DNA of 64,000 nucleotides from Cystobacter fuscus (GTDB taxonomy: Bacteria; Myxococcota; Myxococcia; Myxococcales; Myxococcaceae), in assembly GCF_002305875.1 (NCBI RefSeq), contig NZ_CP022098.1:8246001-8310000 (forward strand), read 5' to 3'. The translations under genes and the position numbers were made by a program. A model generated the notes under the pieces. The model did not search any database and was not told where the DNA came from. It saw only the letters and a program-made list of their open reading frames with translations. Positions 4,474-61,294 of this stretch are shown here, in pieces (position 1 is the first letter of the stretch; each line of letters opens with the position of its first letter).

Positions 4474-4500
4474 GATGGATGTAAGGCATTGAAGCCTCGA

Positions 4501-4534
4501 GCCCCGGTGGGAGTCCTCCCACCGGGGCGGTTTC
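4501..4534 (+). terminator. Rho-independent-type terminator after nrdJ
   Basis: A perfect 12-bp stem, GCCCCGGTGGGA (4501-4512) and its complement (4517-4528), closes on a 4-nt GTCC loop and is followed by GGTTTC. It sits 28 nt after the nrdJ stop and before the next gene on the same strand, so it separates the two transcripts. Confidence 0.8.
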
Positions 4535-4557
4535 ATTGCATCCGCCGTCCGCCGCAG

Positions 4558-9299: not shown

Positions 9300-9330
9300 C
9301 CAGGGCCTGGAGCGCCGCCTCAGGCCCTGG
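9300..9330. terminator. Bidirectional hairpin between convergent genes
   Basis: CCAGGGCCTG (9300-9309) pairs perfectly with CAGGCCCTGG (9321-9330) around an 11-nt loop. It overlaps the stop codon of the minus-strand hydroxylase and lies 11 nt past the plus-strand lyase stop. There is no T-tract, so it is a plausible rather than a certain terminator. Confidence 0.4.
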
Positions 9331-10312
9331 CCTGCCGCCGGGCCGCGGAGTACGGCTCGGACATCGCGACCAGCACCCGGCGGGGCCCGCTGTACGGGGA
9401 GCGGCCATGGGCCGCGAGCATGTTGTCCACCAGGAGCACGTCGCCCCGCTGCCAGGGGTACTCGATGCACTCCACGCGGAAGGCCTCGCGCACCTGTTCG
9501 AGCACCTCTTCCGGAATGGGCGAGCCATCGCCGAAGCGCGCATTGCGCGGCAGCCCCTCCTCCCCGAAGAGCTCCTGGAGCGACTGCCGCGCCGCGGCCC
9601 CGACGCTCGAGACGTGGAACAGGTGCGCCTGGTTGAACCAGAGCGTCTCCCCCGTCTGGGGATGCTCCGCCACGCCCTGGCACACCTGACGGGTCCTCAG
9701 TCCGCCGTCCTGCTTCCACTCGAAGTCGATGCCCTGCTCCTGGCAGAACCGCTCCACCTCCGAGCGCTCCTTCGTCTGGAACACGACCTCCCAGGGGAGA
9801 TCGACACCACTGCCGTAGTTGCGGACGTACATCACCTTCCGCTCCGCGAACCGCTGAAGCAGCTCCGGCCCGAGGCGCTGCGTGACCCGGCGGATGGACG
9901 CGAGCGTCGTCGCCCCACCCTTCACGGCGGGCTGGGCGCAGTAGAACATCAGCTTCATCGGCCAGTCCCGCTGGTACGCGTTCTCGCAGTGCAGCGGGAT
10001 GACCTCCGGCGGAGGGTACTCGGTGGCCGTGTAGACGTTCGCGCCGACCGACGAGCGCGGCGTGGAGCGGTACACGTAGCTCAAGCGGGCGGGAGAGAGC
10101 TGCTCACTGAACTCCTCGAAGTCGCGCTGGGCCCGCACCTCGAAGCCGCGGAACAGGATGGCCCCATGGGTGCGCAGGTGCCCGTCGAGCAGCTCACGGT
10201 TCGCCTCCACCCATGGCGCGAGCCGCGTTCCCCGCGCCGTACAGCGCGCGAGCAGCGGCGCGTTGCGCTCGGAATCAACCACCTCGAAGTGGACGACCTC
10301 ACTCTGACTCAT
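9320..10312 (-). CDS. TauD/TfdA-type Fe(II)/2-oxoglutarate hydroxylase (SyrP/AsnO-like)
   Basis: A 330-residue clavaminate-synthase/TauD-family oxygenase. The iron-binding facial triad is visible as H108-C-E110 (in L-H-C-E-N-A-Y) and the distal H302 (in A-A-H-G-R-S-P), followed by the 2-oxoglutarate-binding arginine pair in G-P-R-R-V. The H-x-E rather than H-x-D form and the A-Y after it are typical of NRPS-associated amino-acid beta-hydroxylases such as SyrP (Asp) and AsnO/VioC (Asn/Arg). It should hydroxylate a beta-carbon, either on a free amino acid or on a carrier-bound one. The start ATG overlaps the stop of the preceding CmlA-like gene (ATGA), so it is the third gene of the minus-strand operon led by the giant synthetase. 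An Asn-type first module in that synthetase makes Asn/Asp a plausible substrate, but this is inference. Confidence 0.85.
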   Translation of the reverse strand: MSQSEVVHFEVVDSERNAPLLARCTARGTRLAPWVEANRELLDGHLRTHGAILFRGFEVRAQRDFEEFSEQLSPARLSYVYRSTPRSSVGANVYTATEYPPPEVIPLHCENAYQRDWPMKLMFYCAQPAVKGGATTLASIRRVTQRLGPELLQRFAERKVMYVRNYGSGVDLPWEVVFQTKERSEVERFCQEQGIDFEWKQDGGLRTRQVCQGVAEHPQTGETLWFNQAHLFHVSSVGAAARQSLQELFGEEGLPRNARFGDGSPIPEEVLEQVREAFRVECIEYPWQRGDVLLVDNMLAAHGRSPYSGPRRVLVAMSEPYSAARRQARA

Positions 10313-11898
10313 AGCGGGAACTCCTTGTGGCCGAACAGGCGCTCCGCCGCGATGCGCTCCTCACGGCACTGAGCCAGCAGCCGATCGGACTCGACGATCG
10401 GCTTCGACTGGGCCGTGTAGTGGATGCTGGCGACGTAGTTCAACCAGGGCTCCTGTCCCATGGCGTAGATGAAGACGTTGCGCGCGGAGAACTGGTGGAC
10501 GAGCTCCATGCCTCGCTGGCAGTCGGAGCCGTTGAGTCGGCGGCTCTGGTCCATGTTCCGTTCCAGCTTGCGCGTGAGCAGGGGGCCGTACAGCCAGGAC
10601 TGCGGCGCCCCCTCGCACTCCATCCCGAGGAACAGCGTGTCCACGTCGCCGATGGCCTCGTGGACATGCCGATACATCCGGCCGTCCAGGTTGGCGCTGT
10701 CGGTGACGCACAGCGCGCGTCGGCCCTGGAGGTTGATCAGGTGGCCAATCTTGCTCCGGATGTCGAGGTCACCGTGCTCGCCCATGAACGGGATGCCGGT
10801 GATCGATCCACCCGGAATCTCCAGCGCATCCATCTCCTCCAGCTCGACGACATTCTTGAAGCCGAGCTGCTTGAACATGAGCTTCATGGAGGGATCCAGG
10901 AGCGCGTCGCCGCCGCCGCGCGGGACAACCAGGGTGTTCACCCGGTGGCGCAGTTGCAGCAGGGCCTCGAACAACACGTGATCCTGGTGGTTGTGGGTCA
11001 GCACGACGTAGTCGATCGTGTCGGGCAGGTCCTGGAACGAGAAGCGCCGGACGTCGCTCGGGTACTCGTAGCTGATGAACGGATCCAGCAGGATGGAGGT
11101 CTCGCGGCTCTCGAACAGCAGACAGGCGTGGCCGAAATACCGGACCCGCGGCTGGTCTCCGTCGTAGCGGGGCGTGCGCCGCGGCGGCGTCGGGGTGAGC
11201 AGTCCATCCACCAGCGGCCGCTGCTCCGGCGTGACGCCGAGCGCCTCATAGAGTCCGGCGGCGGTCCCCGGAGTGCGCTGCATCCGGAAGAGCGTGTCGA
11301 TTCCCGGGTGGTCGAAGGACAACGGGAGGTGGAGCCGATCCGGCTGCTCGAGCCGCGGCGTGCTCAGGATGAAGGGCCGGTGATCCTGCTCGATGGGGTA
11401 CAGCATGAGGCTCTGCAGATCCCGCCGGTAGTACCGGCTGCGGTAGAGCAACCCCTCGAGCAGGCGCAGTCCGGGGCGGTTCGAGCCGTCGTAGGTGAGC
11501 TCGACGAAGCCCCGGAGGCAGTCCGGCAGCTTCGCGTACAGCGCATCCATCGAGTAGCCCACGGCCTCGCGCTCGACGAGAGCCGTGGCCTCCGCGATCG
11601 CCTCGGCCAACTGGATGAGGTCCCCGAGCGAGGCCTGGGTGCGCTTGAGCAGCTCTCGCACGTCCGCGCTGCGGTCGGTCTCGTAGTCGATGACCGGTCC
11701 CCCGAGCATCCCCGGCTGTTTGACCGCCGCCATGTGCAGCCGCGGGTTCTGCACGTAGGACTTCATGATCTTCACGTGCTGATTCGCGGTGAGCATGGCC
11801 GCGGTCGCGGGCGGTATCAGATACGACCAGGCGTACCACTGGTTGAACAGTGGTTCGATCACCAGGTTCGGCTTCACGTACACCTGACTGTCACTCAT
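10309..11898 (-). CDS. CmlA-type di-iron beta-hydroxylase with metallo-beta-lactamase fold
   Basis: A 529-residue protein, the same size as CmlA of chloramphenicol synthesis (about 532). An N-terminal region of about 240 residues without known motif is followed by a metallo-beta-lactamase domain with H302-N-H304-Q-D306-H307. Further ligands fit E374 (in M-G-E-H-G-D) and D400 (in C-V-T-D-S). These correspond, with a constant shift of three residues, to the CmlA ligands as I remember them (H305, H307, D309, H310, E377, D403). The glutamate ligand separates this oxygenase group from hydrolytic lactamases. CmlA enzymes hydroxylate the beta-carbon of an amino acid bound to an NRPS carrier domain, using O2 and two reducing equivalents. 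The gene starts 8 nt inside the end of the synthetase gene (ATGAGTGA), so translation is coupled to the likely substrate carrier. Confidence 0.85.
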   Translation of the reverse strand: MSDSQVYVKPNLVIEPLFNQWYAWSYLIPPATAAMLTANQHVKIMKSYVQNPRLHMAAVKQPGMLGGPVIDYETDRSADVRELLKRTQASLGDLIQLAEAIAEATALVEREAVGYSMDALYAKLPDCLRGFVELTYDGSNRPGLRLLEGLLYRSRYYRRDLQSLMLYPIEQDHRPFILSTPRLEQPDRLHLPLSFDHPGIDTLFRMQRTPGTAAGLYEALGVTPEQRPLVDGLLTPTPPRRTPRYDGDQPRVRYFGHACLLFESRETSILLDPFISYEYPSDVRRFSFQDLPDTIDYVVLTHNHQDHVLFEALLQLRHRVNTLVVPRGGGDALLDPSMKLMFKQLGFKNVVELEEMDALEIPGGSITGIPFMGEHGDLDIRSKIGHLINLQGRRALCVTDSANLDGRMYRHVHEAIGDVDTLFLGMECEGAPQSWLYGPLLTRKLERNMDQSRRLNGSDCQRGMELVHQFSARNVFIYAMGQEPWLNYVASIHYTAQSKPIVESDRLLAQCREERIAAERLFGHKEFPL

Positions 11899-14800
11899 CC
11901 TGGCCTCCGGATAGCGCCTGCTGCTTCGTCACGGTGGCCAGTGACCGCTCGATGGCGGCGCCCAGCTCACGCGCGACCTGTATGACCTGTGGCTGCTCGA
12001 GCACCGTGTAGTGCTCGCCCGGCACCTCTACCACGCGCAGCGCCCCCTGGCTGGCCTGCCGCCACCCCTCGAGTTGCCGCGCCTTCTGTGCGGCGGGCGC
12101 GTCCATCGCCTGCAACAGCACCAGCTCGCGCGAGTAGCCCCGCGGCTCGTAGCGCATGCCGGCCCGCAGGTTGCTCGTGAAGACCCGGTAGATCTGCTCC
12201 AGGCGCTTCAGGGACAGCGCGGGCGACAGCAGGCCCAGCGCGACGGCCCGCTCCCGCAGGTAGGCCAGCCGCTCCTCGCCCGCCAGGGCATCCAGATGGG
12301 GCGCCTCCGCCGCGAGCCGCTCGATGCCAGGGCCGAGCAGATCCACGACGAAGTGGCGGAACAGCTCCGCCTCGTCCAGCGCCTCCGCGGTGAGGTTCGA
12401 GAGCACGTTGCTGTCCAGCAACGCCACCATCGCGACCGTCCGGCCCTTCGCCTCCAGCTGGCGCGCCATCTCGTACGCGACGATGCCACCGAAGGACCAG
12501 CCGCCCAGGAGCACGGGACCCTCGGGCCACACCTGCTCGAGCGCCTCGCGGTAGTGGGCCGCCAGCTCGGAGAGCTCGAGCCGCGGAGCCTCCCCGGTCT
12601 CCAGCTCCGGCGCCTGGAAGGCGTAGACGGGCTGGCCGGAGCCGAGCAGCCGGCTCAGCACGTTGTAGGCGGACACGCCTCCGCCCACCGGGTGCACCAG
12701 GAACAGCGGCGGACGCTGGCCCTCGGCCTGGAGTCGGACGAGCGGGGTCGGACGGTTCGCCTCGGCCCCCTGCTCGATGCGGCGGGCCAGCGCCGCGATG
12801 GTCGGCGCCTCGAGGATCGCCCCCACCGGGAGGTGGAAGTCCTGCTCCTCGCGCAGGGTGGCGATGAGCTGCAGGGCCAGCAGGGAGTTGCCGCCCACCT
12901 CGAAGAAGCTGTCCTCCACCCCCAGCCCCGGCATCTTGAGCAGCCGGGTCCAGAGCTCGAGCAGCCGCGCCTCCCACTCCGTGCGCGGAGCGACGGGGGC
13001 CGCGCGGGGGCTGTCCCTCCGCTCCGGCGCCGGCAGCGCGCGACGGTCCAGCTTCCCGTTCGGCGTGACCGGCATCGCCTCGAGCCGGATGAAGGCCGAC
13101 GGCACCATGTACTCGGGCAGCCGCGCCCGCAGGGCGGCGCGCAGCGGCTCGAGCGCCTCGGGCAGCGAGGGATCGCAGACGAGATAGGCCACCAGCCGCT
13201 TGTCGCCGGGCACGTCCTCCCGGGCGAGCACCACCGCCTCGCGGACGCCGGGGTAGGCCACCAGCGCCGTTTCGATCTCACCCAGCTCGATGCGGAAGCC
13301 GCGCAGCTTCACCTGGTGGTCGATGCGCCCGAGGTACTCGATGTCCCCGTTGGGCATGTACCGGGCCAGGTCTCCGGTGCGGTACAGCCGCTCACCGGGC
13401 CGCGTCGCGAACGGATCCGGAACGAACGCCGTCGCGGTCAACTCCGGCCGATGGAGGTAGCCCCGCGCCAGGCCGATGCCGCCGATGTACAGCTCGCCCG
13501 GCACGCCCACCGGCACCGGGTTCAACATCGGATCCAGGAGGTGGATCCGGATGTTGTCGATCGGCTTGCCGATGGGGATGGTCGACAGCCCGTGCCCCGG
13601 CTCGCAGTGCCAGGCGGTGACGTCGATCGCCGCCTCCGTCGGTCCGTACAGGTTGTGCAGCTCGCAGGACAGACGGGTGGCGCACCGCTGCTGCATCTCG
13701 AGCGGCAGGGCCTCACCGCTGCACAGGATCCGCCGGAGGCTGCCGCAGCGCTCGCTGCCGGGCTCCTCCAGGAAGAAGTGCAGCATCGACGGCACGAAGT
13801 GGAGCGTGGTCACCCGCTCGCGCTGGATGAGCTCGACCAGGTACGCCGGATCCTGGTGCCCACCGGGACGCGCGACGAGCAGCCGGGCGCCGGTCATCAA
13901 CGGCCAGATGAACTCCCACACCGACACGTCGAAGCTGAAGGGCGTCTTCTGCAGCACGCAGTCGTCCGGCTTGAGCCGGTAGGCGTCCTGCATCCAGCGC
14001 ACCCGGTTGTACAACCCGGCGTGGGTGTTCATCGCGCCCTTGGGCATGCCCGTCGAGCCCGACGTGTAGATCATGTACGCCAGGTGCTCGCCCACCAGCG
14101 GCACACCCGGATTCTCGCCGCTCTCGCGAGCGATGCGCGGCCAGTCCGAGTCCAGGCCGAGGATCTCCGCGTCCAGGGGAGGCAGGCGCGAGCGCAGCCG
14201 CTCCTGCGTCAGGAGCAGCGAGACGCCCGAGTCGGCGAACATGTACCGCAGGCGCTCCTCGGGGTACTGGGGGTCGAGCGGGACGTAGGCGCCGCCCGCC
14301 TTGAGCACGCCGAGGATGGCGACCACCAGCTCGAGGGAGCGCTCCATGCACAACCCGACCCGGGACTCCGGCCCCACCCCCCGCGCGCGCAGGTGGTGCG
14401 CCAGCTGGTTGGCCCGCTGGTTGAGCTCACGGTAGGTCAGGTGCGCGCCCTCGAACGTCACCGCGATCGCGTCGGGCGAGCGCTCCACCTGCGCCTCGAT
14501 CTCCGCGTGGACCCACACCGTCGTGGGCAGGGCAACCTCGGTGCGGTTCCACCCCACCAGCAGCTCCTGGCGCTCCTCCTCCGGCAGCAGCACGGCGCGG
14601 GCGTGCGGGGCCTCCGGCTGGGAGACCATCTCCTCGAGGCAGCGCACGTAGTACCGCGCGAAGCGCTCAAGCTGCGCCTGGGTCAGCTCGGTGCTCGCCC
14701 CCTCCAGCGACAGCTCCAGCCCTTGGGTCCGCGGGTTCACGTTGAACGTGGCGGCCAGGGTGAAGTTGGTCTCGGTGAAGCTCAGGCCCTCCACGACCTC

Positions 14801-17800
14801 GAGTCCCTCGAAGTCACGCAGGTCCTCCGAGAGCTGGTGGAAGTGCAGGAAGTTGAACGCGGTCTCGAACAGCGGCTGTCCGCCGAGCTCGCGCTGGATC
14901 TGCGCCAGCGGGAAGCGCCGGTGGGACATGAGCTGCTGCTCCGCTTCGAACGCGGCCTCGGCCAGCGCCTTCCAGCTCCCGCCGCCCAGCCGCAGGCGCC
15001 ACGGGACGGTGTTGAGGTGCAGGCCCAGCACCTCCTCGCCCTGGGCCTCCTCGAGACGGCCGTTGGTGATGATGCCGGAGACCACGTCGCGCTGGCCGGA
15101 CAGCAGGCCCAGCACCCGCCCATGCGCGGCGAGCAGCAGGCTCTTGAGGGGCAGGCCCCAGGTGCCCGCCAGCCGGGTGAGGCCGGTGGAGAGCGTCTCT
15201 CCCAGCGGCAGGAGCCGCCAGAGCGACTGCCTCGAGCCGGACGCGGGCGCAACCGGCGGCCGTGGCACGTGGACGAAGGTGAACCCGTCCAGGTATCGCT
15301 TCCAGAAGGCATGGCACTCCGGTGAGCCGAGCGCCTCCCTCTCGAGCCGGATGTAGTCCCGGTAGGTCACCGGAGACGGCGCCGGCAGCACCGGCACGCT
15401 GCCCGACACCTTCGCGTGGTAGCGCGTCAGGAGCTCCGAGAGCATCCGGGTGAAGCTCCAGCCATCGAGCAGCGCGTGGTGGAAGCTCAGGCAGATCTCG
15501 AAGTCCTCCACCCCGAGGCGGAACACCCGCGCGCGCAGCAGCGGCGCCTCGCTCCAGTCGAAGCCACGCTGCTTCTCGGACTCGAGCCAGGCGCGGATCG
15601 CCGCGTCCTGCTGGTCCGCCGCCAGCCCCGTCAGGTCCCCTTCCGAGACCGGCAGCTCGACCTGCTCGTGGACACACTGCAGCAACTGCCGGAAGCCCGT
15701 CAGGTGGAACGAGGTCCGGAGCACCGCATGGGCGGCCACCACCTCGCGCAGGGCCTCGACGAGCTTGCCGTACGCATAGGGGCAGTGCACCCGGTAGCTG
15801 AAGATGTCGTGGTAGGCCGCCGAGCCATCGAAGCCGCTGTGGAAGAACATGCCCGCCTGCAGCATGGAGAGCGGATAGGCGTCGACCACGTCGGACGGCA
15901 GGCGGCGCCGGTCCTCCTCGTCAATCAAGCTGAACGGCGCGCTCCGCGCGGGCGGGCCACTCCCCTGCTCCACGGCGGACGTCGGCTCGAGCTTCAGGCC
16001 CGCCGCCAGCTCGGCCACGGTCTTCTGCGTGAACAGCTGCATCAGCGAGACGTTCAGCCCCCGCTCCTTGAGGAGCGCGAGCACCCGGATGCTCAGGATC
16101 GAGTCGCCACCCAACGCGAAGTAGTTGTCGCGGATGCCGACCCGCTCGAGGCCCAGCACCTCGCCCCACACCTCGGTGATGATGCGCTCGACGTCGTCGC
16201 GAGGCGCCTCATAGGACCCGCCCAGCTCGAGCCGCGCCGAGTCCGGCTCCGGCAGCGCCTTGCGGTCGACCTTGCCCGTGGCGGTCATCGGCATGCGGTC
16301 GAGCAGGACGAAGGCCGCGGGCAACATGTAGTCGGGCAGCGACTGCTGCAGGAAGTCCCGCAGCTGCACGACGGTGGGCGTCTCGCCCGGGCGGGGCAGC
16401 ACGTAGGCGATGAGCTGCTTGAGGCCCTCGGCGCTGGTGCGCAGCAGGACCGCCGCCTCGGCCAGCGACGGATGCGCCCGGAGCGCCGTCTCGATCTCCC
16501 CCAGCTCGACCCGGAAGCCGCGGATCTTGATCTGGTTGTCGAACCGGCCGAGGAACTCGATGTCCCCCTCCGGCAGGAAGCGCACCAGGTCGCCCGTGCG
16601 GTACAGCCGCTCGCTCAGACCCTCCGGGAATGGATTCGGGACGAACTTCTGGGCGCTCAGCTCCGGCGCGTTCCAGTAGCCGTGGGCCAGCCCCGGCCCG
16701 CCCAGGTACAGCTCGCCCGGAATGCCGGCCGGCACCGGGTGGAGGGCCGCATCCAACACGTAGACGGACGTGTGCGCGATCGGTCGGCCGATCGGGAGGA
16801 CGTTGCCGGTGAAGTCCGGACGGATGGGATACCAGAGCGCGAAGGTGGTGCACTCCGTCGGGCCGTAGACGTTCAGCAGCCGCTCGGGCGGCCCGGCCCG
16901 GAACACCTCGCGCACCCAGCGCGGGTCGACGACGTCGCCGCCGACCAGCACCGTCCGGAGCGACCGGAACACGCCCGGCACCCGCTGCACCACCTGGTTG
17001 AACAGGGCCGAGGTGATGAACATCACGGTGAGCCCGCGCCGCGCGATCTCCGCCGCGAACACCTCCGGCGACAGCAGCACCTCCTTGGAGAGGATGGACA
17101 CCCGCGCGCCATGCACCAGCGCGCCCCAGATCTCGAACGTCGCGGCGTCGAAGGTGATCGTCGCGAGCTGCGCGAAGCGATCGTCGGAGCGCACCGGCAC
17201 GTAGTTCGTATCCGAGACCAGCCGGGCGATCGCCTTGTGGGGGATGGACACCCCCTTGGGCCGGCCGGTCGAGCCCGAGGTGTACAGGATGTACGCCAGG
17301 TCATCCGGGCCATTCACCGGCTCCGGATTGGTTTCCGGCGTGGCGAGCGTGTCGAGTTGCAGGTCCAGGGCGAACAGGTTGCCCTCGAAGTCCGGCAACT
17401 CGTACATGTACTGCGACTCGATGAGCAGCGTCCGCGGACGGACGTCGTCGAGCATGTACTGGATGCGGTCGCTCGAGTAGCCGGGGTCGAGCGGCACATA
17501 GGCGCCGCCAGCCTTCAGGATGGCCAGCATCGCGATGATGGCCCGCTCGGAGCGGTCGAGCATCATGCCCACCGGCTCGCCCGGCTGGAGCTGGTAGTCC
17601 TGCCGGAGCATGTGCGCGAGACGGTTGGCCGCCTCGTTGAGCTGCCGGTAGGTCAGCGAGACGTCCCCGTTCTCGATGGCGAGGGCCTCGGGCGTGCGTG
17701 CCGCCTGCGCCTCGAACAGCCGCGCCACCGGGGTGTCGATCGAGATCCGCGCCCCGTCGCTCAGCGACGCGGTGGGCTCGAGCCGAGGCACGTGGTTCCA

Positions 17801-20800
17801 GCCGCGCAGGATCAGCTCCCGCTCCGCGGCGGTCAGCATCGGCAGCGCCTGGAGCCGCTCGCCGGGGGCCGAGACGATCGACTCGAGCAGGGTCCGGTAG
17901 TGCTCCAGCAGGCGGGAGATGGTGTCGTCGTTGAACAGGGCGGTGCTGTACTCGAGCGAGCCGACCAACCCCTCGCGGGTCTCGTCGAAGACGAACGTCA
18001 TGTCGACCTTGGAGGTCTCCCCCGGGAGCATCAGCGGCTCGAGCTTCAGGCCGGCCAGCTCGAGCTCGGGCATCGGGACGTTCAGCAGGACGAACATCAC
18101 CTGCGCCAGCGGGGCGCGGCTGGTATCGCGCTCCTTGACCAGCGCCTCGACCAGCTTCTCGAAGGGGACCTCCTGGTGCGCGTAGGCGCCCAGCGTGTTC
18201 CGCCGGACCCGCTGCAGGAGCTGCTGGAAGCTCTCATCGCTCCGGAACCGGGTGCGGATGGGCAGCAGGTTGAGGAAGGGCCCGATGAGCGATTCCAGCT
18301 CGGCATGGGTGCGTCCGGCGATGGACGTCCCCACCACCATGTCCTCCTGGCCCGTGTAGCGGTGCAGCAGGACGTGGAAGGCACTGAGCAGGGTCATGAA
18401 CAGCGTGGCCCCTTCCTGACGGCTCAGCGCGCGCAGGCGCTCGGAGAGCTCGGGGGACAGGGTCAGCGTCTGGGTACGACCGGAGCTGTCCATCGCCGTC
18501 GGCCGCGGACGGTCCGTCGGCAGCTCGAGCACCGGAGGCGCCTCGCCGAGCGCCTCGCGCCACCAGGCCAGCTGCGACTCGAGCACCTCGCCCTTCAGCC
18601 ACGACTGCTGCCAGAGGGCGTAGTCCCGGTACTGGAGCGGCAGCTCCGGCAGCGAGGCCGCCGTGCCGGAGACGGCCGCCGCGTAGAGCGTCGACAGCTC
18701 GCGGATCAGGATGCCCATCGACCACCCGTCGGAGACGATGTGGTGCATGTTGATGAGCAGCACGTGCTCCGTGTCCTCGAGCCGGAGAAGCCGCGTCCGC
18801 ACCAGCGGGCCGGCGGCCAGGTCGAAGGCATGGCGCAACTCCTCGCGGGCCCGCTGTTGCACCTCCACCTCGCGCTGCTCGCGAGGCACCGAGCGGAGAT
18901 CCTCCACGGGCAGCGACAGCCGGCAGTCCGGGTGCACGACCTGCACCGCCCCGTGTCCGACCGTCTGGAAGGTCGTCCGCAGCAACTCGTGCCGCTGCTC
19001 GATGTCACGCAGGCACGAGAGCAGCCGCTCCGTGTCCAGCGGGCCCGAGAGCCGCAGCGCCCCGGGGACGTTGTAGGCCGGGTTGCCGGGCTGGAGCTGG
19101 TCCACGAACCACATGCGCTGCTGCGCGTACGACAGGGGCGACGTCACGCCTGTCGCCGCCCGGGTGAGGGGCGGCGCCTTGGGGGCGTTCCTCGTGGCGA
19201 GCGCGGCCTCCACGACCGCGGCGGACTCCCGGAGCGTCGGATGCTCGAACAGGCTGCGGATCGGCAGCTCGATCTGGAACGTGCTCCGCACCTGCGAGAC
19301 GACCCGGGTGGCCAGCAGCGAGTGACCGCCCAGCATGAAGAAGCTGTCGCGGGCCCCAACCTCCTGGACGCCCAGGACCTCGCGCCAGATGTCCGCCAGC
19401 TGCTGCTCGATGGCCGTCAGCGGCGAGGCGTCGGCGGCGGGGGTGGTCGGCTTCAGCTCGAGCAGCGCCTTCCGATCGATCTTCCCGGAGAGCGTCAGCG
19501 GGAGCTTGTCCATCGGCACGAAGACCGAGGGAACCATGTAGGCGGGCAGCCGGCGCTGGAGCGCCGCGCGCACCGCGTCCTCCGGGAAGTGCTCCGGCGC
19601 GTCGGTGACGACGTAGGCGGCGAGGTGCTTTCCGCCGCGCTCGTTCAGGAGCACCACGGCCTCCCGCACCTGGGGCTGGTCACGGAGCGCGGCCTCGATC
19701 TCCTGAAGCTCGATGCGGAAGCCCCGCAGCTTCACCTGGTGGTCCGCGCGGCCCATGAACATCAGCCGGCCATCCGGCAGGTAACGCGCGATGTCGCCCG
19801 TGCGGTACATCCGCGCGCCCGGCGTGGTGCTGAACGGGTCGGGCAGGAAGCGCTCCGCCGTGAGCCCGGGACGCGACAGGTAGCCGCGAGCCACCCCCGT
19901 CCCACCGATGTACATCTCGCCCGGCACACCGACCGGGACCGGCTGGAGCCGCTCATCGAGCAGGTACACCGCCGTGTTCCAGATGGGGCTGCCGATCGGC
20001 GGCGGAGAGACGCCGGGCCGCAGCCGGGCGAGCGGCATGGCGGTCGCGCAGACCGTGATTTCCGTCGGCCCGTACAGGTTGAAGAGGCGCTGCGCCAGCG
20101 GGGATGCGCTCACGTCCGGGAGCGCGTCTCCGCCCGCCAGCAGGTAGCGGAGCCCGAGCGAGGTCGCGCCCGGCTCGTTCGCCACCGCCGCCGCCATGGG
20201 CGTCGGCAACATGCTGACGGAGATCCGCTGCTCGCGGAGCCACTCGACCAGGCGGGCCGGCGCCAGGCGGGCTTCGTCATCCGGGATGCAGATCGTGGCA
20301 CCCGAGACCAGGGAGGGCCAGACGTCGAGGATGGTTCCATCGAAGCCCGTCCCGAAGGTCAGCGTCGTCCGGTCCCCCGGTGCCAGCTCGACGGTGGCGC
20401 GGTACCAGCCCGCCAGGTTGACGGCGCCGCGGTGCGGAACGAGGACGCCCTTGGGCTGTCCGGTCGAGCCCGAGGTGTAGATGACGTAGGCGAGCTCCTC
20501 CAGGGTGCGCCGCACCGGTTTCGCACGGAGGCCGCCGCCCGAGCCCCACCGGGAGGCGCCCTCGCGCCACGACACGACGCGCACGCCTTCCGGCGGTGTC
20601 CCCTCGCCCCATCCGTCACGCGTCAACACGAGTGGCGCGCCCGCATCCCGCAGCATGTAGGCGATGCGCTCGCGCGGGTTGGCCGGGTCCATCGTGAGGT
20701 AGGCGCCTCCGGCCTTGAGGATGGCCAGGAGCGTGATGAGGTATTCCGGCGACCGCTCGAGCAGCACGCCCACCGGCGTCTCACGGCCCACCCCCTGCGC

Positions 20801-31993: not shown

Positions 31994-32282
31994 CGAGTTC
32001 CCCCAAGAGTCGTGTATGGCGGTGCGAGACCGCAGTGGTCGCGGAAGATGAAAGAACGAGGATCCGTAACCCAGACGAGATGCGGGCAGAAGCAGAACCC
32101 GCGGACCCGCCACGATTCAGCGGGTGGCCCGGAAAAGGCCTCGTTGTCGTCACGTGGGACGGATGTTTGTCACGAACCTGAGCAGTGACACCCGGAGGCA
32201 TCCAGCATACCCTGCCGCCAGGCACGGCCTCCGCATGCTGGCTCCGAGAGGGCCCTGCGCGCCCCTACCCCGAGAGCACGAG
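31994..32282. promoter_or_regulatory. Divergent promoter region of the giant NRPS and the GNAT gene
   Basis: A 289-bp gap between two divergent operons. It is relatively less GC-rich than the flanking genes, as expected of a bidirectional promoter. On the minus strand GGGGGA precedes the NRPS ATG. I could not fix -35/-10 boxes or an operator by eye, and see no regulator gene beside it. Confidence 0.5.
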
Positions 32283-32957
32283 ATGATGGACCCGAGATGG
32301 GAATGGGCGCTCCCGATTCGCGAGGCACACCTGCAGGAGAAGCTGCTGGGCCGCTACACCCTGGCGAGCCTCGAGCGCAAGGAGTGGTGGGACCTCTACC
32401 TCCGGGAGTTGGCGCCCCACTTTCCGGAGGAGTTGTTCTTCTCGTTGGAGGGTCTGCTCAGCGAGCATGAGCGTCAAGCCAGGAAACGGGTGATAGAGGC
32501 CCAAGGCGCAGCCCCTTGGGTGGACTACTGGTGCATCCGGGACGGCGAGCACGTGGCGGCCATGTTCCTGGGCCGTCAGCAGCGGGAAGATGTGTACCTG
32601 ATGGACCTGAGCATCGTCCACCCAGATGCTCGCCGGAAGGGGCTTTATAGCGCCCTCATCCAACGGCTCATCTCCTATACCCGTGCATTGGGCTTTCACC
32701 GCATCCTGAGCAGCCACGCCCCCAGCAACAACCCCGTCATCATCGCCAAGCTCAAACAGGGTTTCAGCATCACGGGCCTGGAGATTGACGCGGAAGTCGG
32801 CCCCAACCTGCTCTTGACCTACTTCCACAATCCAGAGCAGAAACGCGCCTACGAGTACCGCTGTGGGGGAACCCATCTGAGCAAGCGCATGGTCGAGAGC
32901 TCGCAGGGCAGCTTTGCGCGGCTCCAAAGCAGCATTGCAAAGGCTACGGGCGACTAA
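32283..32957 (+). CDS. GNAT-family N-acetyltransferase
   Basis: A 224-residue protein whose central part has the GNAT acetyl-CoA fold: strand V-Y-L-M-D-L-S-I-V followed by H-P-D-A-R-R-K-G-L-Y-S-A-L-I-Q, equivalent to the R/Q-x-x-G-x-G/A motif A, and a later A-L-G-F segment. It is the first gene of a plus-strand operon with the GHMP kinase and the penicillin-acylase-family gene and is divergent from the NRPS. Its substrate is unknown. Acetylation of an exposed amine of the peptide (self-protection) or of a precursor amino acid is possible given the neighbours; both are inference. Two adjacent ATGs occur at 32283 and 32286; the frame is open upstream to 32163, which is a less likely start. Confidence 0.75.
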   Translation: MMDPRWEWALPIREAHLQEKLLGRYTLASLERKEWWDLYLRELAPHFPEELFFSLEGLLSEHERQARKRVIEAQGAAPWVDYWCIRDGEHVAAMFLGRQQREDVYLMDLSIVHPDARRKGLYSALIQRLISYTRALGFHRILSSHAPSNNPVIIAKLKQGFSITGLEIDAEVGPNLLLTYFHNPEQKRAYEYRCGGTHLSKRMVESSQGSFARLQSSIAKATGD

Positions 32958-33039
32958 GACGGCCTCATCCCGTTGACCCGCAGTCTCCAACCGCAACCTG
33001 CCGTGCCCGGTACCAACCGGCTGGCATGATGGATGTGCG

Positions 33040-33993
33040 ATGGAAGCGAAAACACCAGGAAGGCCACCGGCTCGAGCCGAGCACCTCGAGCGGGGGGAGC
33101 ATGCAACGACCACCCGGACCGGGTACGGAAGCTCCATCGCCCATCACGGGGAGATCCTGCAGGGCGTGTTCGAGCTCTCTCCGGGACAGCTGGAGCGCGC
33201 CCTCGTCACCCTCCCCTGTCCGCTCTTCAGCGCGCATGCCGTTTTCACTCCGGACGACAGCGGAACCCTGGCCCTGGAGCCCTACTGGAAGGTCAAGGCC
33301 CGGCTGGCGGCCCAGACAACCCTGGCGGCCCATGGGCTGGAGCACAAGGGGGGCCGCCTCGTCGTGAAGAGCGAGATCCCCATCCGCTGGGGCCTCGGCT
33401 CCTCCACCAGCGACGTCATCGCCACCATCATCGCCGTGGCGGACGCCTTCTCCCTGTTGCTCCAGCCCGAGCAGATCGCCTCGCTGGCGGTCGATGCCGA
33501 GGCGGCCTCTGACTCCCTGATGTTCGGGGATCGCACCGTGCTCTTCGCGCACCGGCGCGGGTACGTCGTGGAGGAGCTGGGCGGCCCCCTCCCGCCGCTC
33601 GACGTGCTCGGGTTCAACACGGATCCGACCGGCAAGGGGGTCGACACCGTGGAGTTCGCGCCCGCGCGCTACAACCGGTCGGAGATCGAGATGCTCCAGC
33701 CGTTGCCCGGGCTGCTCCGGCGTGCGCTGCGGGAGGGAGACCCCCGCGGGGTGGGCAGGGTCGCCACGGCCAGTGCGCGCATCAACCAGCGGCACCTGCC
33801 CATCCCGAGGTTCGACGCCCTCCTGGCGCTGGCGGAGACCGTCCACTCCGTGGGTCTCCAGGTCGCCCACAGCGGCACCGTCGTCGGGCTCCTCTTCGAC
33901 GCCAACGATGCCAGGAAGAGCGCGGGCATCCAGAAGGCGCGGACGCTGCTTCGCGAGTCTGGGATAGAGCAGACCTGGCACTTCCGCACATGA
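33040..33993 (+). CDS. GHMP-family kinase (PduX-like threonine kinase), candidate first step of 2,3-diaminobutyrate synthesis
   Basis: A 317-residue GHMP kinase. The N-terminal G-S-S-I-A-H-H-G-E-I-L-Q-G matches the substrate-side motif of PduX-type kinases, and the ATP loop is G118-L-G-S-S-T-S-D125. PduX makes O-phospho-L-threonine for cobalamin side-chain synthesis; no cobalamin genes are nearby. In friulimicin-type clusters a homologue (DabC) phosphorylates threonine so that a cysteine-synthase-like enzyme can replace the phosphate with an amine donor. The presence of matching lyase and PLP-enzyme genes in the same cluster supports that role here. It lies between the GNAT and penicillin-acylase genes, with a 30-nt gap to the latter, so these three probably form one operon. 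Confidence 0.8.
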   Translation: MEAKTPGRPPARAEHLERGEHATTTRTGYGSSIAHHGEILQGVFELSPGQLERALVTLPCPLFSAHAVFTPDDSGTLALEPYWKVKARLAAQTTLAAHGLEHKGGRLVVKSEIPIRWGLGSSTSDVIATIIAVADAFSLLLQPEQIASLAVDAEAASDSLMFGDRTVLFAHRRGYVVEELGGPLPPLDVLGFNTDPTGKGVDTVEFAPARYNRSEIEMLQPLPGLLRRALREGDPRGVGRVATASARINQRHLPIPRFDALLALAETVHSVGLQVAHSGTVVGLLFDANDARKSAGIQKARTLLRESGIEQTWHFRT

Positions 33994-34023
33994 CCCTCCG
34001 CCCCCCTTCACACTGATCTCATC

Positions 34024-36378
34024 ATGGACAATCAGGGACGACGCTCCCGCTCCCGGCTCCGCACCGTCCTGCGCGGGCTCTTCCTCCTCTTGCTGGTCCT
34101 CGTGGGCGCGCTCGGACTGGGCGGCTATGTCCTGACGAAGCGGCAGGGCCTCCGCTACGAGGCCCAGGTCACTCCGGCCGGGGCGCGCGTGTCCTTCGAT
34201 GGCCACGGCATCCCCACCGCCGAGGCCCCGGACTGGAGCACGCTGCTGCGCGCCCAGGGCTACCTGCACGCCGGCGAGCGGCTCTGGCAGATGGACCTGA
34301 TGCGCCGACAAGGCGCCGGACGCCTCTCGGAGTGGTTTGGCGAGGCGGCGTTCCCGAGCGACGAGCGGCGCCATCAGGAAGACTGGGAGGGGGTCGCCTC
34401 GCGTGCCGCCGAGAGCCTCCCGCCCGGGGAGCGGCGGGAGTGCGAGGACTATGCGGAAGGCGTCAACCAGTTCATCCGCGAGCACCGCTGGGGGGCCGGT
34501 ATCGAGTACGTGCTGCTGGGAGTCCAGCCCGAGCCCTGGCGGTGCCAGGACAGCCTGCTCGTGTTGATGTCGGTGGCCGAGGCGCTCAGCGCGGAATCCT
34601 TCCAGGACATCCGGAGGAACTACTACCACCAGCGCCTTCCCGAGGACTGGGAGCGCTTCCTGTACCCCGACGTCCACCCCTGGAATCACCCGCTGTTCGA
34701 GGGGGACTCGCAGCCCCTCCCCTCGCTCCCGGAGCCAGGGAACTACCTGCCCGCGACCCCGATCGACGCCGTGCAGCTGGGCTCCCGGGTCGAGCGGCCC
34801 TCGCCCATCGGCAGCAACGGCTGGACCTGGCGGGATGGCACCAGCGCCTTCCTGGCCAATGACCCGCACCTCGAGCAGTCGGTTCCACAGCTCTGGTACG
34901 CCATCCGCCTCAAGCGCTCGCCCGAGGACTGGGTGGTGGGCGCCAGCATCCCCGGCCTTCCGGGCGTCGTGCTGGGCATGAACCCCCACTTCGCCTGGGG
35001 CGTGACCAGCCTGGGGGAGGACATCGACGACCTCCTGGTGGAGAAGCTGTCGCCCGACGGCGCGTCCTATCTGGCGGAGGTGGTCGAGGGCCGCGAGGTG
35101 TGGCGCCCGCTCCAGCGGAAGGACTCGCGGGTCAAGGTCCGGGGCGGTGAGGAGCGCACCGTGCACGGCCTGGCGACCCATCGGGGGCCGCTGCTGCGCC
35201 GGCCGGAACTCGGGGACCAGGCCTACTCCCGTCAGTGGTTGCCCCTGAAGGAGGGAACGCTGCGGCTCCCGCTCCTCGCGCTCGCCCAGGCACGTGACTG
35301 GCAATCCTTCAACACCGTGATGGACGGCTTCACCGTGCCCGCGGTGAACGTCCTGTGGATCGATCGCCAGGGCAACATGGGCTACCGGGCCACGGGGCTC
35401 ACGGTGGAGCGGCGGAGCACGGGGCTCCTGCCGCAGCCGGCCGTGGCGGGGGAATGGAAGGGAATCCGTCCGGGCTCGGAGCGCCCGCGGCTCTACCGGC
35501 CGGTGGCCACCAGCCCAGGCACCTCCGACGCGCTGGTCAGCGCCAATCAGCGGGTCTGGCCGGATCGGTTCGGGGCGTACTGGGGCAGCGACGAGCGCGC
35601 GGACCGGATCCAAACCCTGCTGGGCACGGGCGCGGCCCTGTCGCCCACCGACATGGAGCGGATGCAGCTGGACACCTACAGCCGCTACCACCACGAGCTC
35701 GCCCGGTGGATGGTGAAGCACGCGCGGCCACGGAACGACGCCGAGCGAGCCCTCCTCACGCAGTGGCGGGGCTGGGACGGGAGCGCCGAGCATGCACCGG
35801 CCACCTTCACGGAGGTGGCCTTCGCCGAACGTCAGTTCGTCACGCTGCTGCTCGACCGTGTCCGCGCGCGCTATCAGTTGACGGCGGAGGAGCGCTCCCA
35901 GACGCGCTACAGCGCCTACCTGCAGTCGGCCTGGGTGCTCACGCTTCTGGAGAACGAGGGGAGTCTGAGGGTCTTCGGCCTGACGGATGACGCGCTCGCC
36001 ACCGCCCTGCTGGACCGGGTCCTCCAGTCCCGGGAGGCTGGCAAGCTCCAGCCCTACCCCGAGAAGAACGCCTGGGGCGCGCAGCACCCCTTCGCGGAGG
36101 AGATTCCCGTCCTCGGCGACCTGTTCCGCGTCGAGAGCTTCCCCCAGGTGGGTTACGAGGGGCTGGTGCGGGTGGAGACCCCGGTGTACGGCGCGACGGT
36201 GCGCCTGGTGTGGGATCTGGCCCATCCGGAGCGCAGCACCTGGCTGTTCCCGACAGGCCAGTCCGGCCACATCGGCTCGCCCCACTTCCGGAGCATGCAG
36301 CGGGACTGGGCGGGCGGCACCACCCGGGCGCCGGTGTTCGAGGAGCCCTCGGCCTGGGGGTTGTCCCGCGCGAAGTGA
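34024..36378 (+). CDS. Membrane-anchored penicillin-acylase-family Ntn hydrolase
   Basis: A 784-residue protein of the penicillin amidase (S45) family. Residues 14-37 form one membrane segment after an arginine-rich N terminus, so the enzyme should face the periplasm or outside. The autocatalytic cleavage point is expected before S264, in I-G-S-N-G-W, the usual G-S-N-x-W context of the beta-subunit nucleophile. That gives an alpha part of about 225 residues and a beta part of about 520. The later N-D-P-H-L and V-N-V-L-W segments also fit the family. Members cut amide-linked acyl groups: penicillins, homoserine lactones, or, for PvdQ, the fatty acid of the pyoverdine precursor. Because this cluster starts with a fatty-acid-loading module, removal of the acyl chain after export is a plausible role. 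A 12-bp inverted repeat overlaps the stop codon. Confidence 0.85.
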   Translation: MDNQGRRSRSRLRTVLRGLFLLLLVLVGALGLGGYVLTKRQGLRYEAQVTPAGARVSFDGHGIPTAEAPDWSTLLRAQGYLHAGERLWQMDLMRRQGAGRLSEWFGEAAFPSDERRHQEDWEGVASRAAESLPPGERRECEDYAEGVNQFIREHRWGAGIEYVLLGVQPEPWRCQDSLLVLMSVAEALSAESFQDIRRNYYHQRLPEDWERFLYPDVHPWNHPLFEGDSQPLPSLPEPGNYLPATPIDAVQLGSRVERPSPIGSNGWTWRDGTSAFLANDPHLEQSVPQLWYAIRLKRSPEDWVVGASIPGLPGVVLGMNPHFAWGVTSLGEDIDDLLVEKLSPDGASYLAEVVEGREVWRPLQRKDSRVKVRGGEERTVHGLATHRGPLLRRPELGDQAYSRQWLPLKEGTLRLPLLALAQARDWQSFNTVMDGFTVPAVNVLWIDRQGNMGYRATGLTVERRSTGLLPQPAVAGEWKGIRPGSERPRLYRPVATSPGTSDALVSANQRVWPDRFGAYWGSDERADRIQTLLGTGAALSPTDMERMQLDTYSRYHHELARWMVKHARPRNDAERALLTQWRGWDGSAEHAPATFTEVAFAERQFVTLLLDRVRARYQLTAEERSQTRYSAYLQSAWVLTLLENEGSLRVFGLTDDALATALLDRVLQSREAGKLQPYPEKNAWGAQHPFAEEIPVLGDLFRVESFPQVGYEGLVRVETPVYGATVRLVWDLAHPERSTWLFPTGQSGHIGSPHFRSMQRDWAGGTTRAPVFEEPSAWGLSRAK

Positions 36379-36392
36379 GGTTCGCGCGGGAC
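36363..36392. terminator. Bidirectional hairpin between convergent operons
   Basis: GTCCCGCGCGAA (36363-36374) and TTCGCGCGGGAC (36381-36392) form a perfect 12-bp stem with a 6-nt loop. It spans the acylase stop codon and ends just before the stop of the minus-strand MFS gene. It lacks a T-run; its position between converging operons is the main support. Confidence 0.5.
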
Positions 36393-36393
36393 G

Positions 36394-37758
36394 TCAGGCC
36401 GGGGACTGCGGTTCGGCTCGGGGAGGGTGCTCGGAGGAAGAGAGCTGGCTGTAGAGGTCCTCCGGGACGGCGTCCGCCAGCTCGGTCTCGGCGTGGCGGA
36501 GCCGGGGGTGCAGAGAGCCGATGACCGTGGCCAGCACCGTCCCCAGGCCCAGCACCATGAACATCAGACCGATGCCGCGTCCGGTGCCCGTTCCAATCAC
36601 CCGGCCCAGGCTCATCGCCAGCGGGCCGCCGGGGGCGAGCAGGGGCTCGAACACGTGGTCGGCCAACGGGCCCGCGATGACGTAGGCCACCGGCGAGGAG
36701 GCGGCCACCACCATCCGCCGCACCGCGAAGACCCGCCCCTGCACCGAGGGCTCCACCTTCCTCTGCCAGAGCGCCATGTTGCAGCCGCTGCTCAGGGGGA
36801 TGCAGAAGGAGAACACGAAGGCCGCCGTCGCGACGAGCGGGACAGAGGGCTGGAGGCCCCCGGAGAACAGGACCACGCCCTGCAGGAGGAGGAAGCCCAA
36901 CACCCCATGGACGAGCCGGGCGGGCCCGCCCCATACGCTCATCAGCACGCTGCCCGCCACCATCCCGAGCCCGCTGAAGGACAGCACCGTGCCGAGCACC
37001 GCTTCGGTGGTGAAGCTCAGGAGCATGGGGGTCAGCAGCGTCCAGACAATCCCGAGGGAGAAGTTGCCCACCCACAGCATGACCAGCAGGCCCAACAGCC
37101 CCGGCCGCTGGCGGATGTAGCGCAGGCCGTAGGAGGCCTCGCCCAGCAAGGAGCGCCGGGTCTCCTGCTCCTGCGGCCCGGGGGCGGTCCGGGGGATGCG
37201 CACGAAGAGGAGCAGGAGCAGCGCGACGGAGTAGGTCCCCACGTCGATCCAGAGGATCCCCGACAGCTCGAGGGACACCACCAGCAGGCCGGCGAGCACC
37301 GGGGAGAGCAGCTCCCCGAGCGCCTCGCCCATCTGGTACAGCCCGCTGGCGCGGCCCAGCTGCTCCCGGGGAACCAGGAGCGTCGTGGCCGAGGCGAACG
37401 CCGGCATCTGGAAGACGTTGAAGACCGAGATCGCCGCGACGGCACAGTTGATGTGCCACAGCTCCAGCTCGCCCAGGTGCAGCACGGCGAGCAAGAGCAG
37501 CGTGCACACCCCCGAGCCGGCCTCGCTCAGCAGCAGCGCCCGCTTGCGGTCCCCCCGGTCGACGAACACCCCCGCGAAGGGCGAGAGCAGCACCGTCGGG
37601 AGGACCGTGGCCAGGGACGTGAGCGCGAACTGCGTGACCGAGCCGGTCCGTTGGTACACGTGGAGGCTCAGCACGAAGTTCGTCAACCGTGCACCGGTCG
37701 CGGAGATGACCTGGCCCGTCAAGGCGACCAGGAACATCCGCATGCCACCAGGGAGCAT
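36394..37758 (-). CDS. MFS transporter, probable exporter of the lipopeptide
   Basis: A 454-residue polytopic protein with about twelve hydrophobic segments and the MFS loop-2/3 motif form D-R-G-D-R-K-R-A. It resembles the MFS_3/enterobactin-exporter (EntS-like) group of multidrug permeases. It follows the beta-hydroxylase gene by 11 nt on the same strand and is the last gene of the operon that begins with the FAAL-NRPS, so export of the peptide product or its acylated precursor is the natural inference. A methionine 15 nt downstream of the chosen start (37743) is an alternative start with a GGTGG just before it. Confidence 0.85.
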   Translation of the reverse strand: MLPGGMRMFLVALTGQVISATGARLTNFVLSLHVYQRTGSVTQFALTSLATVLPTVLLSPFAGVFVDRGDRKRALLLSEAGSGVCTLLLLAVLHLGELELWHINCAVAAISVFNVFQMPAFASATTLLVPREQLGRASGLYQMGEALGELLSPVLAGLLVVSLELSGILWIDVGTYSVALLLLLFVRIPRTAPGPQEQETRRSLLGEASYGLRYIRQRPGLLGLLVMLWVGNFSLGIVWTLLTPMLLSFTTEAVLGTVLSFSGLGMVAGSVLMSVWGGPARLVHGVLGFLLLQGVVLFSGGLQPSVPLVATAAFVFSFCIPLSSGCNMALWQRKVEPSVQGRVFAVRRMVVAASSPVAYVIAGPLADHVFEPLLAPGGPLAMSLGRVIGTGTGRGIGLMFMVLGLGTVLATVIGSLHPRLRHAETELADAVPEDLYSQLSSSEHPPRAEPQSPA

Positions 37759-37769
37759 CTGGGACAGGT

Positions 37770-38564
37770 TCAGGCCGAGGCTCCCAGCAGCATGTCGCGG
37801 AACTGGCTCAGCGCGCCCACCTCGATCTCGGTCAGCTCCGGGTGCCAGATATCCAGCAGCAGGATGACGCGAACGCGGTTGCTCTTGTTCCAGACCTCGT
37901 GCTCGTAGGTGTCATCGAACAGCAGGCACTTGCCCTCCTGCCAGGTACGGGTCTCGTCCGACACCCGCATGGCACAGTCCGGCGGCACCACCAACCCCAG
38001 GTGGCAGGTCAGCTTGCCGTTGAAGTCACTGCAGTGCGGACGGATGTAGCCCTGCGGCGCCAGGCTGGCGAACATCGCCTCGCCCGCCACCGGCAGCTGC
38101 CGGATCAGCCCGAAGGTCTTGGGGCACCGGGCCTGGTTCTCCTTGAAGGAGACCTGCAGCTGCGTGCCACTGCCGACCCGGTAGAAGTAGAACTCCTTCC
38201 ACCCCAGCTTCTCGAAGTCGTCGCGGTCGCGGAACTCCTCGAACCCGCTGCCGCTGCGCATCGCGAGCTCCAGCTCCTCGCGGATCATCGGGTAGGCCTG
38301 CTCGAGCGTCTTGCCCAGGGACAGCTGGGAGGGGTCGTGCCAGGGCTTCGCGGTCAGGCCGGGGAACCAGAGGCGGCCGACCTTGCCGTTCATCTGCCGG
38401 GGATCATCGGCGACCGGCTGCTTCTCCCCCAGCAGGTACTGGGCGAACACCTCCAGGCGCTCCAGGTCCGATGCCTTGTGGTGCCGGCGCAATTGATCCA
38501 TGCCGTACTCGACGGCCTGGGCGACCTGCTTGAGTGCCTCGCCCTGCTGCGTCTCGGATTCCAT
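37770..38564 (-). CDS. Aspartyl/asparaginyl beta-hydroxylase family protein
   Basis: A 264-residue member of the AspH (PF05118-type) family of Fe(II)/2-oxoglutarate oxygenases. The two iron-binding histidines are visible at H177 (in I-R-P-H-C-S-D) and H222 (in T-Y-E-H-E-V-W), followed by the 2-oxoglutarate arginine in N-R-V-R-V. AspH enzymes typically use only two histidines rather than a His2-carboxylate triad, which fits. The start is the ATG at 38564, preceded by AGAGGA 6 nt away; a GTG five codons earlier lacks such a site. It lies between the FAAL-NRPS and MFS genes on the same strand. In NRPS clusters members of this family hydroxylate aspartate, asparagine or other side chains; which residue is modified here is unknown. 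Confidence 0.85.
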   Translation of the reverse strand: MESETQQGEALKQVAQAVEYGMDQLRRHHKASDLERLEVFAQYLLGEKQPVADDPRQMNGKVGRLWFPGLTAKPWHDPSQLSLGKTLEQAYPMIREELELAMRSGSGFEEFRDRDDFEKLGWKEFYFYRVGSGTQLQVSFKENQARCPKTFGLIRQLPVAGEAMFASLAPQGYIRPHCSDFNGKLTCHLGLVVPPDCAMRVSDETRTWQEGKCLLFDDTYEHEVWNKSNRVRVILLLDIWHPELTEIEVGALSQFRDMLLGASA

Positions 38565-44009: not shown

Positions 44010-44256
44010 GGACCTTTGTTCCACGAGATAAGGAGTTGATGGCCCGGGATACATCCGTGACGGATCCGCGCGGGTCAACCCGGCGCCAGGCACGGGGCAC
44101 TCATGTGGCCCGCGCCCTCACGTATGCTCGGCATCCATCCAGGCCCGGAGAAGCGAGCCCAAGCCGGTCAAACCGCTATCCATCACGGAGGCGATTTGGC
44201 ATGTTCGGCTCTCCGAAGCAAGCAACCCTCTTTGTACATCTGGATGGACTGAAGTG
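44010..44256. promoter_or_regulatory. Divergent promoter region of the FAAL-NRPS and threonine-aldolase operons
   Basis: A 247-bp gap between two divergent starts. No gene fits in it. AAAGG on the minus strand is the ribosome site of the NRPS gene; only a weak purine stretch precedes the plus-strand ATG at 44257. No promoter boxes could be assigned with confidence. Confidence 0.45.
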
Positions 44257-59049: not shown

Positions 59050-59056
59050 CGCCGCG

Positions 59057-59064
59057 CCCCTTCT
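59057..59064 (+). promoter_or_regulatory. CCCCTTCT leader element (copy 7)
   Basis: It lies 7 nt before ATG 59072 of the portal gene; the spacer CGGCGGC contains no Shine-Dalgarno. Confidence 0.55.
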
Positions 59065-59071
59065 CGGCGGC

Positions 59072-61286: not shown

Positions 61287-61294
61287 CTCCGGCC

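Follow-up and report, generated by a model that had tools for sequence, protein, structure and literature searches.

Why should a single peptide assembly line be accompanied by three β-hydroxylases of unrelated type, and on which residue does each of them act? The question is raised by a nonribosomal peptide synthetase (NRPS) cluster of Cystobacter fuscus, which spans about 7.8–47.8 kb of a 64,000-nucleotide stretch of DNA (contig NZ_CP022098.1, positions 8,246,001 to 8,310,000; below, the window), taken from a genome of 12.35 Mb assembled as a single contig. The cluster is of the lipopeptide type, with a fatty acyl-AMP ligase (FAAL) start and seven modules, and it contains a TauD-type, a CmlA-type, and an AspH-family enzyme. 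We propose that each hydroxylase serves a different carrier (T) domain of a lipoheptapeptide line, a reading to which, taken whole, we give a probability of about 0.45. The steps would be as follows. The TauD-type enzyme, which is CysJ-like, would β-hydroxylate Asn bound to T1. The CmlA-type enzyme would hydroxylate T5-bound Ile to a transient β-hydroxy-Ile, and the condensation domain C6 would remove this hydroxyl again as Ser is joined, so that dehydro-isoleucine results. The third site, that of the AspH-family enzyme, would most likely be the T0-bound basic residue that starts the peptide. The substrates, the order of steps, and the product are all predicted from sequence.

Fewer than three stable β-hydroxy groups are likelier than three. 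The most specific division of labour, in which a permanent β-hydroxy-Asn comes from the TauD-type enzyme, the diiron-derived hydroxyl is spent by C6 on dehydro-isoleucine, and the AspH-family enzyme works on a carrier-bound basic residue, is doubtful as a complete set. If the proposal is true, counting hydroxylase genes overestimates the hydroxyl groups in products, a CmlA-type enzyme and a dehydrating C domain form a testable pair for dehydro-isoleucine, and an NRPS-linked AspH-family enzyme has a substrate that can be assayed directly.

Three hydroxylase types in one cluster

The three genes all lie on the minus strand: a TauD-type Fe(II)/2-oxoglutarate (2OG) hydroxylase (9320..10312; PF02668, E 2.3e-45), a CmlA-type non-heme diiron monooxygenase (10309..11898; CmlA_N, E 7.3e-86), and an AspH-family Fe(II)/2OG enzyme (37770..38564; PF05118, E 1e-49). 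The E-values exclude a chance match for each of them, and the preliminary description, which had reported three unrelated hydroxylase types in one NRPS cluster, is borne out. The order on this strand is a FAAL-ACP-C-A-T starter NRPS (ACP, acyl carrier protein; C, condensation domain; A, adenylation domain), the AspH-family gene, an MFS exporter, the giant NRPS, the CmlA-type gene, and the TauD-type gene. The giant NRPS (11891..32113, minus strand; an alternative ATG start at 31993 is plausible) is organized as (C-A-T)x6-TE, with TE a thioesterase, and a Pfam scan at E 1e-5 finds only C, A, T, and TE families in it. Eight bases are common to its stop and the CmlA start and four to the CmlA stop and the TauD start, in agreement with the earlier statement that two of the hydroxylase genes are coupled to the giant NRPS. 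The AspH gene is uncoupled from the giant NRPS; 39 bp separate it from the starter NRPS ahead of it.

The metal ligands named earlier are all present. The TauD facial triad, H108-x-E110 and H302, is intact as read from the sequence, as are H177, H222, and the 2OG-binding R232 of the AspH-family enzyme, counted from the ATG at 38564. Residues H302, H304, D306, H307, E374, D400, and E427 of the CmlA-type enzyme align to the same residues of the CmlA chain 4jo0. The preliminary description had set these ligands at an offset of exactly three from CmlA; the correspondence of ligands stands, and the numbering against the 4jo0 chain is offset by 5. An offset of three would hold if the 534-residue chain has two extra residues.

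The co-occurrence of the three types was sought in 147 genomes of the class with cut-offs of E 1e-20 for TauD and AspH and 1e-40 for CmlA, at which remoter members are missed. TauD relatives are present in 29 genomes, CmlA relatives in 63, and AspH relatives in 38. Pairs within 80 kb are few: TauD with CmlA in four genomes (the window's own, G114, G109, and G110), CmlA with AspH in six (the own genome, G080, G048, G073, G077, and G079), and TauD with AspH in one. All three types fall within 80 kb in the own genome alone (1/147), so that the combination is rare at the cut-offs used. The count is a lower bound, since many of these assemblies are broken into hundreds of contigs, and clusters divided between contigs are missed. 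Finding all three together is uncommon, and each of the enzymes belongs to a known kind.

The nearest relative of the cluster, in genome G080, has the same domain order as the window. Its CmlA homologue is 87% identical and in the same place, and its AspH homologue is 70% identical. The A-domain codes are identical at positions 0, 1, 2, and 6; the least alike A domains are A3 (48% identity) and A4 (70%). No TauD is found genome-wide in G080 at E 1e-20, and the 100 kb read there holds no convincing remnant (best E 0.27). G080 keeps CmlA and AspH without TauD; therefore, the hydroxylase set is modular. On this sequence comparison, the TauD gene was acquired or lost separately from the CmlA and AspH genes.

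Substrates of the three enzymes

In a tree of 23 rows, which did not include CysJ itself and where the branch of the window sequence is rather long, the closest rows to the window TauD are the TauDs of G073:C16 and G071:C40 (support 97/89), and identity to this nearest clade in the class is 53–55%. The clusters of G073:C16 and G071:C40 carry AIKYY/AVK-type A codes, which we take to specify p-aminobenzoate, together with the code DLTKIGEVG, and were recognized as cystobactamid-type by their A codes. The A1 domain of the window (29006..30541, minus strand) has the code DLTKVGEVG, presumably for Asn. The next rows of the tree, from G109, G114, and G110, adjoin NRPS genes with Asn/Asp-like codes. 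Because the enzyme groups with cystobactamid-type TauDs and module 1 has an Asn code, it very likely β-hydroxylates Asn on T1. CysJ of the cystobactamid pathway hydroxylates L-Asn bound to CysH and refuses free Asn (PMC7966384). The window TauD resembles CysJ in Pfam family and HxE...H ligands, its nearest clade in the class is the one described above, and its cluster has an Asn module; unlike CysJ, which acts with the stand-alone CysH, it would find its Asn carrier within the assembly line. A second TauD gene occurs in the same genome (C1:9856806-9877196; L258, L259) between two NRPS genes, one of which bears a FAAL; the other opens with a C domain, matched weakly, and an Asn code. A TauD of G082 likewise stands before a gene of this second kind. 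The hydroxylase OcfG of occidiofungin, named for both Asn and Tyr in a review and a table, was not used as a precedent.

For the second site, the argument begins with C6 rather than with the hydroxylase. The A5 domain (16226..17752, minus strand) has the code DAFFLGVTF, which we take to be an Ile code and which differs by one letter in G080. It is followed by the T5 carrier, with the motif YFALGGDSI (16097..16123, minus strand), and by C6 (14564..15910, minus strand). T5 is the sole GGDS carrier among T0–T6, with GGHS in T0–T4 and GGNS in T6; the pattern of T1–T6 in G080 is identical. In the PDB, C6 matches McyA best (390 bits) and AmbE next (205 bits); all other matches score 149 bits or less. 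A profile made from the single G080 domain was scored against 140 C domains: the window domain reaches 789 bits, a domain of G077 362, and the next 180. C6 is probably a dehydrating (CmodAA/DHC) condensation domain. AmbE-C2 is a characterized dehydrating C domain, its microcystin counterpart being postulated only, and the AmbE-C2 catalytic residues are unconserved in other dehydrating C domains; the carriers preceding such domains form a "TE" subgroup, for one of which GGDSx (x = I or V) is given (PMC10880069). The same source suggests that the dehydro-residues in myxovalargin and odilorhabdin come from a hydroxylase working with a dehydrating C domain. A dehydrating type of C6, the GGDSI carrier, and the Ile module together point to a transient β-hydroxy-Ile on the way to dehydro-isoleucine.

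A survey of 42 C6-like domains, comprising those of the window and G080 and 40 of 66 other matches (the top of the list, then additional genomes), agrees with the class assignment. A GGDS carrier precedes all 42. The upstream code is Val-type in 28, Thr in nine, Ser in two, unread in one, and Ile in two, these last being the window and G080. The class is found behind Ser/Thr or behind Val/Ile, as expected without or with the need of a hydroxylase, respectively. C6-like domains after Val are frequent in the family to which the window belongs (28 of the 42 read; L292–L331).

The closest solved relative of the CmlA-type enzyme is 8a90, at 484 bits against 386 for CmlA; we take 8a90 to be FrsH. 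The enzyme pairs with its G080 homologue with support 100/100 in a 28-row tree, and the two stand in a set (96/95) with enzymes of G082:C13, G073:C5, a Myxococcales metagenome-assembled genome, and G064. The A codes of this set include Ile in G073:C5 and Val-type in G082:C13. FrsH hydroxylates carrier-bound Leu and also accepts L-Ile (PMC7794379). The window enzyme matches FrsH (FR900359) and CmlA (chloramphenicol) over its full length, with all metal ligands and the CmlA_N domain; it differs in that its predicted partner module precedes a dehydrating C domain, so that the hydroxyl would be transient. A nearer likeness is with cryopeptin and myxovalargin biosynthesis, where a CmlA-type enzyme accompanies a dehydrating C domain that follows an aliphatic residue (PMC12181424, PMC10880069). 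In the cryopeptins, CrpA, 38% identical to FrsH, and "modified AA" C domains are proposed for dehydrovaline (PMC12181424). Both routes are themselves proposals, and the window differs from the cryopeptin case in that Ile takes the place of Val and the cluster encodes two more hydroxylases. We consider it rather probable that the CmlA-type enzyme and C6 together give dehydro-isoleucine. At one locus (G101:C1:1101976-1103754; L127), a CmlA-type gene has no NRPS module within the roughly 26–32 kb read on each side.

The third enzyme has the characters of the AspH family: its AlphaFold2 model (mean predicted local distance difference test, pLDDT, 91) is a double-stranded β-helix with the two-His Fe site and the 2OG Arg, and its best fold matches are human AspH (5apa: TMt 0.84, 34% identity). 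It shares this site with LpxO/OlsC as well as with human AspH, and it differs from LpxO/OlsC in scoring far under their cut-offs and in lying within an NRPS operon. In human AspH, R688 contacts both substrate and 2OG (PMC12816917). The aligned residue is Thr in the window, G080, and several NRPS-linked relatives and Arg in LpxO, the G077 group, and the NRPS-linked Aulosira and B. stagnalis rows. The R688-to-Thr change is no proof that Asp binding has been lost: Arg is also the LpxO residue, and both residues occur among NRPS-linked enzymes.

A scan with one genome per species confirmed at least 545 relatives among 593 pattern matches listed, of which the best 80 were kept. Within flanks of up to 10 kb, 15 of these 80 have a condensation domain, two a FAAL, one a CmlA, and one a TauD, and the majority have no NRPS. 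The AspH gene stands directly behind an NRPS module in Polyangium (L159) and in five actinomycetes (L179, L206, L210, L211, L227). The preceding module in these six has the code DA[CT]QLALL, and in G048 and G076 it has DACQLSLLA. This placement behind NRPS modules suggests a carrier-bound amino acid as substrate. In the window, the module in front of AspH is A0-T0, whose code DIGDIGAVD we take to specify a basic, Orn/Arg-like residue. The T0-bound basic first residue is, for this positional reason, our tentative choice, somewhat short of even odds. No role of an AspH fold on a carrier-bound basic residue was found in the literature searched. On a plasmid of Streptomyces cellulosae (CP109198.1, 368646-401371; L154, L241), an AspH-family gene occurs with penicillin acylase, tryptophan halogenase, type III polyketide synthase, and NRPS genes.

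Points against the proposal and other explanations

Several observations weigh against assigning one carrier to each enzyme in this way. The clusters of the closest CmlA relatives outside G080, in G082:C13 and G073:C5, show no C6-like domain above background. CmlA genes occur beside many different A codes, too many for this co-occurrence to be kept as a guide to substrate. Hydroxylation of Ile would have to take place at a tertiary C–H. The AspH gene of G080 lies elsewhere in the cluster, not adjoining the starter module, which weakens the positional argument for T0. Among the surveyed C6-like domains that follow Val or Ile, CmlA is within 20 kb of just 8/30, against 1/11 after Ser/Thr. AspH is within 30 kb of 8/30 and 0/11, respectively; a Ser/Thr domain in G070 has one at about 34 kb. 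These limits were fixed after inspection of the data, the CmlA distances are approximate (stretch start plus 2.5 kb), and the AspH distances were read by eye. The association of CmlA with C6-like domains is suggestive, not strong. Both enzymes are near four of the 30 and neither is near 18, which implies a further hydroxylase. No P450 is close to the orphan C6-like domains of 10 genomes, as judged from a list for which distance was not computed.

An alternative is that the product has two or three stable β-hydroxy residues, one per enzyme, or one residue oxidized in sequence. The three enzymes are intact and unlike in mechanism, and the hydroxyl made by the characterized relatives CysJ and FrsH is stable. 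Against this stand C6, of the dehydrating type and preceded by a residue without a hydroxyl of its own, and G080, which keeps CmlA, AspH, T5, and C6 without TauD, so that a single sequential pathway is not required. We regard this alternative as unlikely. The preliminary description had offered several β-hydroxy residues or the sequential oxidation of one; distinct sites are the likelier half of that suggestion, sequential oxidation is the less likely, and one hydroxyl is probably lost again. By analogy, the enzyme count is a poor guide to the hydroxyl count, because a single CmlA-type enzyme has been linked with β-hydroxylation of Asp, Phe, and Ile in the chitinopeptins (PMC9248904).

The breadth of that chitinopeptin enzyme also speaks for a different exchange of roles, in which AspH, not CmlA, would make the β-hydroxy-Ile for C6, and CmlA would act on the A0 residue, Asn, the A4 residue, or several residues. 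In G069, G071:C5, G106:C168, and G117:C20, where the C6-like domain follows Val, AspH lies within 30 kb of it and the nearest 20 kb hold no CmlA; AspH is on this account a real competitor for the Ile step and may be the partner of C6 in the window. The reverse holds in G071:C33, G061, G059, and G058, where a CmlA relative, of a more distant type with about 38% identity, is present and AspH is not near. FrsH accepts Ile, as noted above, and action of an AspH-family enzyme on an aliphatic residue was not found in the literature searched. The exchange seems improbable to us.

The last alternative makes AspH an LpxO/OlsC-like fatty-acyl hydroxylase acting on the FAAL-loaded acyl chain. Nearby FAALs favour this reading in its simple LpxO-like form, and the flank counts of related loci speak against it. 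NCBIfam matches the enzyme solely with OlsC (109 bits) and LpxO (93 bits), the gene comes after that of the FAAL protein, and G080, G048, G076, G071:C26, and G077 each have a FAAL no more than about 35 kb away from AspH. It is nonetheless quite improbable: the scores are far under the cut-offs of 450 and 500, FAAL is found in two flanks of the best 80 relatives against 15 for the condensation domain, and a 26-row tree places LpxO and the window in separate groups, a result to be read with the midpoint root, the long branch of LpxO and several others, a B. stagnalis row filling 45% of columns, and NRPS-linked Aulosira and B. stagnalis rows on the LpxO side.

The predicted peptide and the remaining genes

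Under our proposal of one carrier per hydroxylase, the product would be a lipoheptapeptide, acyl-[basic]-Asn-[2,3-diaminobutyrate]-Val-X-Ile-Ser, where X is the residue of A4, with the code DGLMLGLVC. Six of the A codes were sought in the literature searched, with no match. The starter NRPS, FAAL-ACP-C-A0-T0, is at 38604..44093 (minus strand). The A2 domain (25784..27328, minus strand) has the code DIWEINTDD and is linked with a diaminobutyrate-type cassette. We tentatively read A2 as 2,3-diaminobutyrate by analogy with the DabABC-like Dab genes of friulimicin. The cassette, on the plus strand, has an argininosuccinate-lyase-like (ASL) enzyme (7787..9289; PF00206), a GHMP-family kinase (33040..33993; PF00288), a PALP (cysteine-synthase-like) enzyme (45412..46572; PF00291), and an ATP-grasp (LAL_C2) protein (46569..47813; PF18603 and PF13535). 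ASL homologues (E 1e-60) adjoin PALP and ATP-grasp homologues in all seven other class genomes that have one. Codes of the form DxW[EQ]...DD are beside the PALP/ATP-grasp/ASL cassette in G076, G078, G083, and G090, and they also occur near a second GHMP gene that the window's genome has; the parts of G069, G082, and G080:C49 that were read have none. The cassette of G080 is on this separate contig, G080:C49, with a GHMP kinase homologue beside it.

Four further genes accompany these. The MFS exporter (36394..37758, minus strand; PF07690) is kept in G080, as are a GNAT acetyltransferase (32124..32957, plus strand) and a GntG-family aldolase (44254..45300, plus strand; NF041359, 466 bits against a cut-off of 230) of the pyridoxal-phosphate type. 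The aldolase is a possible fourth, non-oxidative source of a β-hydroxy amino acid. A tRNA call with a four-base anticodon at 44709-44801 was taken as false because it is inside the GntG gene. A penicillin-amidase family protein (34024..36378, plus strand; PF01804, E 4.7e-133) is a possible acyl-cleaving maturation enzyme.

A DUF5916 gene (4489-7182) is near the cassette ASL gene in the window and likewise in G083, G080:C49, G069, and G082 (L100–L101, L103, L105, L109). DUF5916 genes are also elsewhere in these genomes, and the link to the cassette is a hint only. Elsewhere in the own genome (C1:5414206-5439781; L111, L112), a second FAAL/GHMP-kinase locus is followed by an NRPS with the codes DIWEVNTDD and DVWQINMDD, perhaps for a second diaminobutyrate-type peptide. 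Just past the cluster edge, an integrase gene (48005-49570) and, further on, genes for a phage terminase, portal, prohead protease, and capsid (56879-63224) probably belong to a prophage.

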